Position numbers and translations under genes: made by a program
Part shown: piece after piece, positions 40,068 to 53,133 of the stretch
How the letters are laid out: the number at the start of each line of letters is the position of its first letter
Position numbering within the stretch: the first letter of the stretch is position 1
The notes under the pieces: generated by a model
The model's database searches: none
The model's input: the letters and a program-made list of their open reading frames with translations, nothing else
What the model was told of the DNA's origin: nothing
Assembly (NCBI RefSeq): GCF_000956545.1
Contig: NZ_JYIT01000086.1
Location: forward strand, 1-64,000
Length of the DNA stretch: 64,000 nt
Direction: 5' to 3'
Source: Microbacterium azadirachtae
GTDB taxonomy: Bacteria > Actinomycetota > Actinomycetes > Actinomycetales > Microbacteriaceae

Positions 40068-40700
40068 TCAGAGAACAGGAAGCGTACGCGGCCGCCACGA
40101 CTCGCGGCGGGCCTCGAACTGCGCGATCTTGTCTTCGTTGCGCAGCGTGAGCCCGATGTCATCGAGCCCTTCGAGGAGCCGCCATCTAGTGTAATCGTCG
40201 ATCCCGATGGAGGTCTGGAAGACGGGCTGGTCCGTCGCCTGTCCCGAGCGTGTCGAAGGGCCGATCGTGGCGGTGCGCGCCTCGAGGTCGACCGTGATCT
40301 CGCGGCCGGGATCCTCGTCGATCAGCGCCCAGATCCGCTCGACGTCGGCCTCGTCGACGGTGGCCGCGAGCAGGCCCTGCTTGCCCGAATTGCCGCGGAA
40401 GATGTCGGCGAAGCGCGGGCTCAGCACCACCTTGAAGCCGAAGTCGCGCAGCGCCCAGACGGCGTGCTCACGGCTGGATCCGGTGCCGAAGTCGGGGCCG
40501 GCGACGAGCACCGACGCACCCTGGAACGGCGCCTGGTTGAGCACGAAGTCGGGGTCCTGCCGCCAGGCGTGGAAGAGCGCGTCCTCGAATCCGGTCTTGG
40601 TGACGCGCTTGAGGAACACCGCAGGGATGATCTGGTCGGTGTCGACATTCGAGCGCTTGAGCGGAGCGGCGACTCCGGTGTGCGTGGTGAACTTCTCCAT
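40068..40700 (-). CDS. leuD: 3-isopropylmalate dehydratase small subunit LeuD, with in-frame insertion
   Basis: Small subunit of isopropylmalate isomerase, second step of leucine synthesis, partner of LeuC. The 210-residue protein contains [52 protein letters not shown] and the conserved C-terminus [22 protein letters not shown]. Between DLEARTATI and VFQTSIGID it carries 13 extra residues ([13 protein letters not shown], 147-159) encoded by a REP-like palindrome. This surface loop is short in relatives, so the insertion is probably tolerated. It starts 2 nt after leuC. Confidence 0.96.
40240..40261. repeat. REP-like palindromic element inside leuD
   Basis: TGTCCCGAGCGTGTCGAAGG followed by GC; the complementary strand reads GCCCTTCGACACGCTCGGGA then CA. 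This strongly resembles the CCCTTCGACAGGCTCAGGG family of intergenic repeats known in many bacterial genomes. It is the only copy I saw in the window and lies within the coding frame of leuD. Confidence 0.7.
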
Positions 40701-40702
40701 GA

Positions 40703-42142
40703 TCAGGCCTCCTGCCCGTTCTCGACGAGGTCGCTCGGACTCGAGAGCGTGCCGCGCACGGCGGTCGCCGCGGCGACGAGCGGCGACACCAGGTGGGTGC
40801 GCCCTCCCTTGCCCTGCCGACCCTCGAAGTTGCGGTTCGAGGTCGAGGCGCAGCGCTCCCCCGGCGCGAGCTGGTCGGGGTTCATCCCCAGGCACATCGA
40901 GCAGCCGGCGAACCGCCACTCCGCGCCGAAGTCGGTGAAGACCTTGTCCAGGCCCTCCGCCTCGGCCTCGAGACGTACGCGGGCCGAGCCGGGAACGACC
41001 ATGACGCGCACACCCTCGGCCTTCTTCTTGCCCTTGATGACCGACGCGAAGGCGCGCAGATCCTCGATCCGGCTGTTGGTGCACGAGCCCATGAACACGG
41101 CGTCGACCTTCACGTCCTTCAGGGGCGTGCCGGGCGTGAGGTCCATGTACTCCAGGGCCCGCTCGGCGGCACTGCGCTCGTTCGGGTCGGCGATCTCCGC
41201 CGGATCCGGCACCGACGACGACAGCGAGCTGCCCTGGCCGGGGTTGGTGCCCCAGGTGACGAAGGGCTCCAGAGCATCGGCGTCGATGAAGACCTCGGCG
41301 TCGAAGACCGCGCCCTCGTCGGTGGGGAGCGTGCGCCAGTACGCGACCGCATCCTCCCAGTCCTGACCCTGCGGCGCGTGCGGCTTGCCCTGGACGTACG
41401 CGAACGTCGTCTCGTCCGGGGCGACCATGCCGGCGCGGGCGCCGGCCTCGATCGACATGTTGCAGATCGTCATGCGGCCCTCCATGCTGAGGGCCCTGAT
41501 CGCGCTGCCGCGGTACTCGAGCACATAGCCCTGGCCGCCGCCGGTGCCGATCTTGGCGATCACGGCCAGGATGATGTCCTTCGCCGTGACCCCGGGGCGC
41601 AGGGTCCCCTCGACGTTGATCGCCATGGTCTTGAAGGGCTTGAGCGGCAGGGTCTGCGTCGCCATGACGTGCTCGACCTCGCTGGTGCCGATCCCGAAGG
41701 CCATCGCGCCGAACGCGCCGTGCGTGGACGTGTGCGAATCGCCGCACACCACCGTGATGCCCGGCATCGTCAGTCCCAGCTGGGGTCCGACGACATGCAC
41801 GATCCCCTGCTCCGCATCGCCCAGCGAATGCAGCCGCACGCCGAACTCCTCGGCGTTGCGGCGCAACGTCTCGATCTGGGTGCGGCTGGTCAGGTCGGCG
41901 ATGGGCTTGTCGATCGCGAGGGTCGGAGTGTTGTGATCCTCCGTGGCGATGGTCAGGTCGAGCCGGCGCAGCGGCCTCCCCTCGGCGCGCAGACCGTCGA
42001 ACGCCTGCGGGCTGGTGACCTCGTGCACGAGGTGCAGATCGATGTAGATGAGATCGGGTTCGCCGTTCTCGCCCTTCACCACAAGGTGGTCGTCCCAGAC
42101 CTTCTCGGCCAGGGTGCGGGGTCGGGGGGCTGCGTCGTTCAT
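40703..42142 (-). CDS. leuC: 3-isopropylmalate dehydratase large subunit LeuC
   Basis: Aconitase-type large subunit converting 2- to 3-isopropylmalate with LeuD. The 479-residue protein has [51 protein letters not shown] and the three cluster cysteines ([29 protein letters not shown]). It begins with GGAG 9 nt before ATG 42142. Upstream lies a 15-residue leucine leader peptide whose Leu codons are complementary to this ribosome site. It ends 2 nt before leuD. Confidence 0.98.
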
Positions 42143-42185
42143 GTGCTGCTTCTCCAGAGGGTCAAGGTGCGGCCCACGCGAGACA

Positions 42186-42223
42186 CCGCGGCGAGAGAGG
42201 CCTAGATCGAGGTCTCGCCGCGG
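42186..42223 (-). promoter_or_regulatory. Hairpin after Leu codons of leuC leader
   Basis: Perfect 11-bp arms CCGCGGCGAGA (42186-42196) and TCTCGCCGCGG (42213-42223), 16-nt loop. In the minus-strand RNA the 5' arm begins just after the Leu codons of the leader peptide and the 3' arm just after its stop codon. The leuA leader has the same arrangement. Confidence 0.7.
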
Positions 42224-42249
42224 CCGCTAAGGAGAAGCACCGCCTGCAT
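42202..42249 (-). CDS. Leucine leader peptide of leuCD
   Basis: A 15-residue peptide, [15 protein letters not shown], with three consecutive Leu codons (CTT CTC CTT). TAAACT lies 7 nt before its ATG and no Shine-Dalgarno exists, so the mRNA is probably leaderless. The leuA leader is clearly homologous (shared LLLS-x-R pattern and shared DNA around the Leu codons). The RNA UGCUUCUCC, spanning the Leu codons, is perfectly complementary over 9 nt to GGAGAAGCA, the leuC ribosome site. A ribosome waiting at the Leu codons would prevent this pairing and expose leuC. Confidence 0.75.
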
Positions 42250-42256
42250 GCGGACG

Positions 42257-42262
42257 AGTTTA
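42257..42262 (-). promoter_or_regulatory. -10 box of leuC leader transcript
   Basis: TAAACT on the minus strand, 7 nt before the leader peptide ATG. The expected -35 position (GAAACA, 42285-42280) falls in the loop of a large palindrome. Confidence 0.55.
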
Positions 42263-42269
42263 CCCCCGG

Positions 42270-42298
42270 CCAGGGTGGGTGTTTCCCACCCACCCTGG
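42270..42298. repeat. Perfect 12-bp inverted repeat upstream of leuC leader
   Basis: Arms CCAGGGTGGGTG (42270-42281) and CACCCACCCTGG (42287-42298) with 5-nt loop TTTCC. It covers the -35 position of the leuC leader promoter and lies 115 nt upstream of the divergent MetY-like gene. A regulator site is more likely than a terminator, because no transcript is expected to end here. Confidence 0.6.
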
Positions 42299-42412
42299 GC
42301 CCGTGCGGGACGCCGGATCCCGCGTCCGGATGACGCCGGATTACCCCCGCCGTCCGCCGCGGCGACCCGCCGTGGCACGCTGAACGTCCACGATCCGCTC
42401 GAGAGGTGCCGC

Positions 42413-43708
42413 ATGTCCGTCGAGACCGCCCGTTTCGCCACCACGGCGGTGCACGCCGCCCGGAATCACGCGCCCGCGGCGTCGCGCGCGACGCCCGTCT
42501 ACCTCACCGCGGGATTCGAGTTCGAGGACTTCGACCACGCGGCGGACCACTTCGGGAGCGGAGACGGCTTCGGCTACAGCCGCACCGGCAACCCGACGGT
42601 GCGCGCGGTGGAGCGGCAGCTGGCCGCGCTCGAAGGCGGCGCCGACGCCCTGCTGCTGGCCAGCGGGCAGGCCGCCGTCGCGACCGCTCTGCTCTCGGTC
42701 GCGGGCGCCGGTGATCACATCGTGGCCTCTGAGCACATCTACGAAGGCAGCCGCGGCCTGCTCGTCGACAACCTCGCACGGCTCGGGATCGAGACCACCT
42801 TCGTCGACGACATCGCGGATCCGGAGGCGTGGAGATCCGCCCTCCGTCCCTCCACGCGCGCACTGTTCGCCGAGTCGATCGCCAACGCCCGCAACGACGT
42901 GCTGGACGTGTCCGCGATCGCGGCGGTCGCGGACGCCGCGGCGATCCCGCTGATCGTCGACAACACGCTCGCGACTCCGTACCTGCTCCGTCCGCTCGAG
43001 CGCGGGGCGTCGATCGTCGTGCACTCCGCCTCGAAGTTCCTCGCCGGTCACGGATCGGTGCTGGGCGGCGTCATCGTCGACGACGGCCGGTTCGACGCGG
43101 CGAAGGCCGGTCACAACGCGGCGCACCTCGTGCTCCCCGGGCGGGGCGGCGCTCCCAGCGTCGCCGCACGGCACGGAGGGCTCGCGCGGATCGCCTACGC
43201 GAGGGCGTCGGTCGCGCCGCGGTTCGGCGCCACGCCGTCGCCGCTGAACGCGTTCCTGATCGGTCAGGGCGCAGAGACCCTCGGACTGCGCGTGGAACGG
43301 CAGTCCCGCAACGCCCTCGCGGTGGCGCGCTGGCTCGCCGAGCACGACGCCGTGGAGAGCGTCGACCACGTGGGCCTCCCCTCGCACCCCGACCACGACA
43401 CGGCGGTCCGCTACCTGCACGGCGGGTACGGATCCGTCTTCACCGTCACCCTGCGCGGCGGACTCCCTGCCGCGAAGTCGTTCGTGGAGGGGGTGCGGGT
43501 CTTCACCCACATGACGCACATCGGCGACGTGCGCTCGCTCGTGCTGCACCCCGCGTCCACGAGCCACGTGCTCCGCACGGCTGAGGAACGCGAGCGCCTC
43601 GGCATCCGGCCCGGCACGGTGCGCCTGTCGATCGGGATTGAGGACATCGACGATCTCATCGAGGATCTCGCCCAGGTTCTGCAGCCGGCACGGGAGGTCG
43701 TCCGATGA
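42413..43708 (+). CDS. Cys/Met-metabolism PLP enzyme (MetY-like O-acetylhomoserine sulfhydrylase type)
   Basis: A 431-residue PLP enzyme of the Cys/Met metabolism family. Marks are FGYSRTGNPTVRAVERQLAALEGG, ASGQAAVATALLSV, IVDNTLATPYLLRPLERGA and the PLP lysine in VHSASKFLAGHG (Lys208), then NAFLIGQGAETLGLRVERQ. It is closest in style to O-acetylhomoserine aminocarboxypropyltransferase (MetY), which makes homocysteine from sulfide; cystathionine synthase-like activity cannot be excluded. GAGAGG precedes the ATG. It overlaps the monooxygenase gene by 4 nt (ATGA), which suggests sulfur released from organosulfur compounds is fixed at once. Confidence 0.88.
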   Translation: MSVETARFATTAVHAARNHAPAASRATPVYLTAGFEFEDFDHAADHFGSGDGFGYSRTGNPTVRAVERQLAALEGGADALLLASGQAAVATALLSVAGAGDHIVASEHIYEGSRGLLVDNLARLGIETTFVDDIADPEAWRSALRPSTRALFAESIANARNDVLDVSAIAAVADAAAIPLIVDNTLATPYLLRPLERGASIVVHSASKFLAGHGSVLGGVIVDDGRFDAAKAGHNAAHLVLPGRGGAPSVAARHGGLARIAYARASVAPRFGATPSPLNAFLIGQGAETLGLRVERQSRNALAVARWLAEHDAVESVDHVGLPSHPDHDTAVRYLHGGYGSVFTVTLRGGLPAAKSFVEGVRVFTHMTHIGDVRSLVLHPASTSHVLRTAEERERLGIRPGTVRLSIGIEDIDDLIEDLAQVLQPAREVVR

Positions 43709-51256: not shown

Positions 51257-53032
<1,776 letters not shown>

Positions 53033-53061
53033 TCAGGTGTGGGAGCGGGCCAACACGAACA

Positions 53062-53101
53062 CCGCGACGAGTGGGGCCCTCAGATACGGGACTCGTCGCG
53101 G
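53062..53101 (-). promoter_or_regulatory. Hairpin after Leu codons of leuA leader
   Basis: Perfect 11-bp arms CCGCGACGAGT (53062-53072) and ACTCGTCGCGG (53091-53101), 18-nt loop holding the leader stop codon. It matches the position and part of the sequence of the leuC leader hairpin. Confidence 0.7.
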
Positions 53102-53133
53102 CAGCTAAGAAGGAGCAGACCGCCTGCGCGCAT
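53080..53133 (-). CDS. Leucine leader peptide of leuA
   Basis: A 17-residue peptide, MRAGGLLLLSCRDESRI, with four consecutive Leu codons (CTG CTC CTT CTT). TAGCAT lies 6 nt before its ATG; no Shine-Dalgarno, so probably leaderless. The RNA UGCUC-C-UUCU over the Leu codons pairs with AGAAGAGCA in front of leuA (9 bp, one bulged C). This parallels the leuC leader and implies release of leuA translation when ribosomes wait at Leu codons. Leader-peptide control of leuA has been proposed for actinobacteria. Confidence 0.78.
   Translation of the reverse strand: MRAGGLLLLSCRDESRI

Follow-up and report, generated by a model that had tools for sequence, protein, structure and literature searches.

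A probable copy of the actinobacterial LEU element before leuC in Microbacteriaceae, with leucine codons complementary to the leuC ribosome-binding region

The closest described relative of the element considered here is the LEU element of actinobacteria, reported before leuA by Seliverstov et al. (2005, PMC1262725) as a leader open reading frame (ORF) that carries Leu codons, together with a pseudoknot and a base stem joining those codons to the Shine-Dalgarno (SD) region. The passages of that paper drawn on here leave the mechanism at leuA open and prefer a bound protein, with the ML1624 family as a candidate. They cite mutations of the S. coelicolor leuA leader as having some effect that is inconsistent with classical attenuation, and in another passage Leu-codon mutations are without influence on leuA regulation. 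The words leuC, leuB and leuD are absent from the paper's main text. In S. lividans, the leuA leader LeuL1 (MRFGLLLLSCRGEGL) has 15 residues, is leaderless by RNA-seq and lacks a typical terminator (PMC8079986, in the part used here). The leuA leader of C. glutamicum has four consecutive Leu codons and is treated as a transcription attenuator in the relevant part of PMC4046766. Mycobacteria provide two further systems, both from passages of PMC13236596: cysteine-responsive leaderless poly-Cys ORFs, described there in terms of translation attenuation of cysteine genes (Canestrari 2020, cited therein), and the ilvB1 transcription attenuator of M. tuberculosis, with sensor codons in a leader ORF and a Rho-independent terminator.

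The locus lies in a stretch of 64,000 nt from Microbacterium azadirachtae, the whole of which I will call the window. The features of the leuC region are as follows.

42257..42262, minus strand: TAAACT, -10-like box of the leuC leader, read from the letters
42202..42249, minus strand: leader ORF of 15 residues, probably leaderless, ATG at 42249 and stop TAG at 42204-42202
42231..42239, minus strand: Leu-codon strand of the base stem, DNA TGCTTCTCC, RNA UGCUUCUCC (letters and fold)
42213..42223, minus strand: 5' arm of hairpin H1, CCGCGGCGAGA (letters and fold)
42198..42202, minus strand: proposed pseudoknot strand GGCCU in the H1 loop, overlapping the leader stop (family coevolution; window pairing by eye)
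42186..42196, minus strand: 3' arm of hairpin H1, TCTCGCCGCGG (letters and fold)
42171..42175, minus strand: proposed downstream pseudoknot strand GGGCC (family coevolution; window pairing by eye)
42147..42155, minus strand: SD strand of the base stem, GGAGAAGCA (letters and fold)
40703..42142, minus strand: leuC, 3-isopropylmalate dehydratase large subunit (TIGR00170, 744 bits against a cut-off of 560.25), ATG at 42142
40068..40700, minus strand: leuD, directly 3' of leuC (TIGR00171 over 40068-40682), start MEKFTTH at 40700

Read along the minus strand from 42262 to 42142, the order is TAAACT, 7 nt, the 15-codon ORF, a hairpin holding the leader stop in its loop, GGAGAAGCA, and the leuC ATG. 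The initial annotation of this DNA had noted a 15-residue minus-strand ORF with three Leu codons in a row after TAAACT, a perfect 9-nt complementarity between the RNA of those codons and the leuC SD region, an SD 9 nt before the leuC ATG, and an 11-bp hairpin between codons and SD. All four can be read directly from the sequence: the codons are CTT CTC CTT and the ATG lies 7 nt past the box, UGCUUCUCC is the exact complement of GGAGAAGCA, GGAG ends 9 nt upstream of the leuC ATG, and the hairpin arms occupy 42223-42213 and 42196-42186. Leader control of leuA in actinobacteria had, as the annotation stated, been proposed earlier, in the form of the LEU element (PMC1262725, in the passages used). 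What the annotation missed, sound as its observation was, is the homology to that leuA element, the co-varying pseudoknot, the probable leaderlessness, and a leuA copy in the same window.

The divergent gene upstream is an O-acetylhomoserine sulfhydrylase homologue, scoring below the curated cut-off for every family among the best 25 of 44. A consensus scan called no sigma-70-type promoter at the leuC leader, because the scan requires both hexamers. No Rfam family reached its gathering cut-off across the window, and at E <= 1 the segment 42050-42320 gave two matches, both far under cut-off. A match to Scr6925 at the leuC leader (26.1 bits against a cut-off of 50) was taken as chance. Just 5' of the leader box, at 42270-42298 (minus strand), lies an inverted repeat, perfect over 12 bp and enclosing a loop of 5 nt (CCAGGGTGGGTG ggaaa CACCCACCCTGG), a possible operator; none of 10 relatives has an inverted repeat of at least 7 at that position.

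Judged by sequence comparison, the window element is homologous to the LEU element of actinobacteria, and I call it a copy at a new gene rather than the leuA LEU element because of its location before leuC. The leader ORF with its Leu run, the base stem between Leu run and SD, the pseudoknot, and the homology to leuA elements are all present; the reported location before leuA, which is not part of the fold, is where it differs. Apart from the gene, the difference from the account of the leuA element in the passages of PMC1262725 is one of interpretation, those passages favouring a bound protein and the present data favouring leader translation. Pairing of codons with the SD is therefore not new as a design, having been published for leuA in the same source. 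LeuL1 of S. lividans comes close to the leuC leader peptides in length, in leaderlessness (probable at leuC) and in the missing terminator, but stands before leuA, and the other leucine leader listed in the part of PMC8079986 used here precedes leuS, with none before leuC. The C. glutamicum leader (PMC4046766, in part) is likewise short with a Leu run but precedes leuA, the likeness being one of leader length and codons. The mycobacterial poly-Cys ORFs (passages of PMC13236596) share the leaderless sensor ORF (probable at leuC) but respond to another amino acid; the ilvB1 attenuator from the same passages shares sensor codons in a leader ORF, while its terminator is without counterpart at leuC. 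The open-access literature searched, with subscription papers and preprints outside it, yielded no leuC leader in actinobacteria, which is weak evidence of absence. The leuC copy, its restriction (over the leuC loci checked) to Microbacteriaceae, the constraints on frame and spacing, and leader-SD covariation did not turn up in that literature.

To describe the distribution of the element I used LeuC matches at E <= 0.001, found in 148 of 150 Microbacteriaceae genomes among the matches listed, a few of them weak. The sample drawn from these listed matches comprises 144 upstream regions from 143 genomes (G036 twice) and 82 genera, with weaker or second LeuC copies mostly left out and with no more than about 600 nt of upstream sequence for each of the loci L051-L164. 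A strict hairpin pattern matches 92 of the 144 loci. From these 92 leaders, 72 were chosen for a covariance model of sequence and hairpin, R1, after nine aberrant rows and L060 were dropped and then ten near-copies or odd rows. R1 matches at E <= 0.01 at 97 of the 144 loci (72/100 plus 25/44), 72 of the 97 being training rows that match by construction and 25 being independent of training; the remaining 47 loci are without the element. By genus, 57 of 82 have it, four of them mixed, and 25 do not.

A set of 80 leuC loci from named genomes includes 27 from Microbacteriaceae, as judged by titles and by a LeuC tree. The element is present at 19 of the 80, all 19 within these 27: Microbacterium 8, Agromyces, Cryobacterium and Leucobacter 2 each, and single cases in Leifsonia, Glaciibacter, Rathayibacter, Terrimesophilobacter and one MAG of the family. 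It is present at none of the 53 other named leuC loci, which include the unplaced L268, beside Rhodoluna in the tree. A LeuC protein tree built from the window and the 80 named loci places the window within Microbacterium and requires six changes in the label of presence or absence, a pattern that fits, without proving it, an early gain in Microbacteriaceae followed by losses.

A few individual loci deserve mention. L004 and L016 carry seemingly decayed leuC elements in which the hairpin is retained but a boxed start is missing; L004 also lacks the Leu run, although its congener L010 has an intact element. In L051 and L060 about 250 nt separate the element from the conserved LeuC start, a stretch that holds repeats and is perhaps an N-terminal extension of LeuC.

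With the leuC copies there is now a second collection of elements that allows a joint view of ORF frame, codon choice and SD pairing. The leader ORF is intact in 95 of the 97 R1-positive leuC leaders, the exceptions being L004 and L016. Loss of the ORF or of its Leu codons in close relatives, one of the two refutations that the initial annotation had named, is not borne out by these leaders. Leader starts were picked by box spacing and by an ORF open into the hairpin; phase was not used. Seven loci also hold a boxed candidate start in a different phase, which was passed over for a spacing further from typical. In the 95 leaders the start codon is ATG in 61 and GTG in 34, and it follows a TANNNT box by 6 nt in 69, 7 nt in 25 and 8 nt in one. 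This spacing, 6-8 nt past the box, suggests that the leuC leader transcripts are leaderless. The distance from start codon to H1 is 20 nt in 2 leaders, 23 in 10, 26 in 50, 29 in 29 and 32 in 4, hence a single phase in 95 of 95, and the stop lies 16-31 nt past the start of H1. The longest Leu run is two codons in 11 leaders, three in 52 and four in 32.

The choice of codons within these runs is far from that of the genes they precede. CTT accounts for 185 of the 368 leader Leu codons (50%), whereas in 30 leuC genes its share of the 1049 Leu codons is 1.8%. This bias fits both pairing and sensitivity, because purine-rich SDs pair with CTT as well as with CTC and because CTT is a rare codon. The Leu codons CUC CUU are similar to the 16S rRNA anti-SD, and CTC CTT (42236-42231 in the window) equals the anti-SD core, which makes these codons a ready-made lock on an SD. 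That likeness may be the reason that such locks arose with leucine.

Given this resemblance, some complementarity between leader and SD is expected, and a single match carries little weight: in the window sequence alone, a perfect complement of at least 9 nt arises 22 times when the SD side is put through 5000 dinucleotide shuffles. The case for the leuC element is one of conservation and covariation, not of the single match in the window. Coevolution was assessed on 94 of the 97 leaders (three have no recognisable 3' arm), taken one per genus (n=55), a reduction that leaves some relatedness in the sample. True leader/SD partners pair at -13.47 kcal/mol, shuffled partners at -11.93 (z -4.80, a value that 0 of 2000 shuffles equalled). 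The covariation between leader codons and SD that the initial annotation had proposed to look for in relatives, and whose lack it would have taken as refutation, is there. Controls in the same test gave z +0.24 for a promoter segment and +2.56 for the reversed leader; further controls gave -0.93 for leader against the segment just after H1, -1.18 for N-terminal codons against SD, +0.29 for the H1 loop against SD, +1.78 for leader against reversed SD, and +2.49 for the reversed leader. The 13-nt Leu run alone against the SD reaches z -3.71 or -2.74, depending on the SD window, and scoring by contiguous helix gives -3.53, although the contiguous helix is shorter than 7 bp in 38 of 94 leaders. 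Much of the complementarity is generic, since the SD regions of the 46 element-free leuC genes pair with leaders at -12.4, and foreign element-bearing partners do so at -12.5. The share due to coevolution is only about 1.5 kcal/mol.

The pseudoknot gives a comparable signal. The H1 loop against the segment 8-24 nt past the hairpin has z -5.15 (0 of 2000 shuffles; reversed-loop control +1.11), a test that is partly fitted because its windows were set after a first result with wider windows (z -2.5, 16 of 2000 shuffles). H1 itself is nearly constant: 8 of the 11 pairs counted are invariant, and one of the 11, an added outer pair, is unpaired in 62 of 72 leaders. Twenty-one cells, in two pairs, are changed on both sides, which none of 500 shuffles matched; by the number of pairs with both-sided change, H1 does no better than shuffles (337/500).

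The minimum free energy (MFE) structure of 42249-42137 (-49.8 kcal/mol) holds all nine pairs of the base stem together with H1. In a longer fold, extending 37 nt further into leuC and starting one base late, the base stem is absent from the MFE, and the pairing probability is only about 0.33 for most SD bases. Stretches of the longer fold were also blocked in imitation of a ribosome: the inner SD bases, paired at about 0.33 when free, are paired at 0.01-0.04 with bases 1-28 blocked and, once bases 19-62 are blocked, at 0.76-0.99. This direction agrees with the model given below, yet I do not count it as support, because the change does not lie in the base stem.

Comparison among the leaders thus documents, as properties of the sequences, the ORF and its frame, the box spacing, the homology to leuA elements, and covariation within the base stem, within H1 and within the pseudoknot. 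The interpretation I consider probable is a leucine-responsive translational attenuator, a LEU-element copy before leuC in which stalling frees leuC. The first transcribed base would probably be the A of the leader's ATG, and ribosomes would therefore load on a leaderless ORF. With Leu-tRNA plentiful, they would reach the stop in the H1 loop and leave, whereupon H1, the pseudoknot and the base stem would fold and the Leu-codon run would mask the leuC SD. With Leu-tRNA short, a ribosome held on CTT/CTC would cover the base stem's 5' strand, leaving the leuC SD open, with a presumed effect on both LeuC and LeuD. The sensor codons would themselves be the anti-SD strand, the lock. Supported by comparison, such a mechanism is plausible. 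The initial annotation had likewise read the locus as translational control through codon/SD pairing; covariation and the missing terminator fit that part of it, and the leuA mutants cited in the passages of PMC1262725 weigh against its simple version.

Classical transcription attenuation at leuC was set aside since no terminator-like site was found in 42050-42420. The same finding, together with its parallel at the leuA leader in the part of PMC8079986 used here, sits well with a different account, in which masking of the leuC start sets Rho termination and the main output is the mRNA level. The co-varying partner of the leader, however, is the SD region, and I regard polarity as the chief output as unlikely. 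Polarity on untranslated mRNA is a general phenomenon. A protein-binding RNA with a secondary leader ORF, as Seliverstov et al. preferred for leuA with the ML1624 family in mind, would account for the pseudoknot and for an H1 so highly conserved, and the leuA codon mutants cited in the passages of PMC1262725 speak in its favour, S. coelicolor leader mutants at odds with attenuation being among those authors' own grounds. These mutants are hard to read, because a codon change in such a lock changes the pairing as well. Against such a protein site, which alone needs no frame, stand the single phase in 95 of 95 leaders, the ORF intact in 95 of 97, Leu runs kept through length changes of whole codons, and CTT at 50% versus 1.8%, so that I find it quite improbable. 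Frame and codon bias appear instead to speak for leader translation as the sensor; the leuC copies argue for that role, in an element whose mechanism at leuA was left open in 2005.

Two readings do without any response to leucine. The spacing typical of a leaderless start would also suit a leader that serves leaderless loading, re-initiation or RNA stability; conservation and co-variation of the Leu run and the SD pairing count against this, as does the gathering of matches at leucine genes (79 of 125 before leuA in 59 multi-hit genomes), and it seems to me very unlikely. As for a chance resemblance without function, the likeness of CUC CUU to the anti-SD lends it a starting point, but R1 matches (E <= 0.01) at 97 of 144 loci and co-varying partners make it scarcely credible.

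In the window's own genome, R1 finds leuC at 74.2 bits and, 10.9 kb away in the same window, an element before leuA.

53009..53133, minus strand: second LEU element, before leuA (R1 match of 71.3 bits; letters)
53133-53080, minus strand: leuA leader MRAGGLLLLSCRDESRI, 6 nt past TAGCAT
53101-53092 and 53071-53062, minus strand: H1 arms of the leuA element, CCGCGACGAG and CTCGTCGCGG
53025-53017, minus strand: SD side of the leuA element, AGAAGAGCA, with the leuA ATG at 53011-53009
51287..53011, minus strand: leuA, 2-isopropylmalate synthase, stretch scanned (TIGR00970)

In the MFE structure of the leuA element, AGAAGAGCA pairs with TGCTCCTTCT with one bulge. A weak third match (C54:18410-18496, minus strand, locus L226; 31.3 bits, E 7e-4) stands just before a leuA paralogue at C54:16623-18293, and four more matches in the genome all have E above 0.05.

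Though built from leuC leaders only, R1 matches 30 of 30 leuA loci of relatives, and it has a match in 225 of 246 genomes of the class. Outside Microbacteriaceae, 59 class genomes have at least two matches, 125 in all, of which 79 stand before leuA (in 59 of 59 genomes) and 46 elsewhere; none of the 125 stands before leuC, and leuC itself was found in 58 of the 59. I read 20 of the 46 (L311-L330): 17 have a same-strand LeuB start motif downstream and three do not. I lean, if only slightly, towards the view that a leaderless ORF whose sensor codons are the anti-SD lock has been copied within the pathway, to leuA throughout the class, to leuC in Microbacteriaceae and to the neighbourhood of leuB in other families, giving a leucine regulon of one RNA element with no shared protein. 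A cis-acting RNA element at a further gene of the leucine pathway makes a co-regulated leuA/leuC set testable in harmless soil bacteria. The distance from the LEU-like hairpin to leuB is 154-672 nt in 16 loci and 1892 nt in a 17th, and masking of the leuB SD seems unlikely at such a distance. Most of the leuB-associated loci are cut too close upstream to show a leader start; two that have a promoter box in register encode the leaders MRKQLVLIACRGRTS and MARQLVILSSRGEFR, with Leu, Val and Ile.
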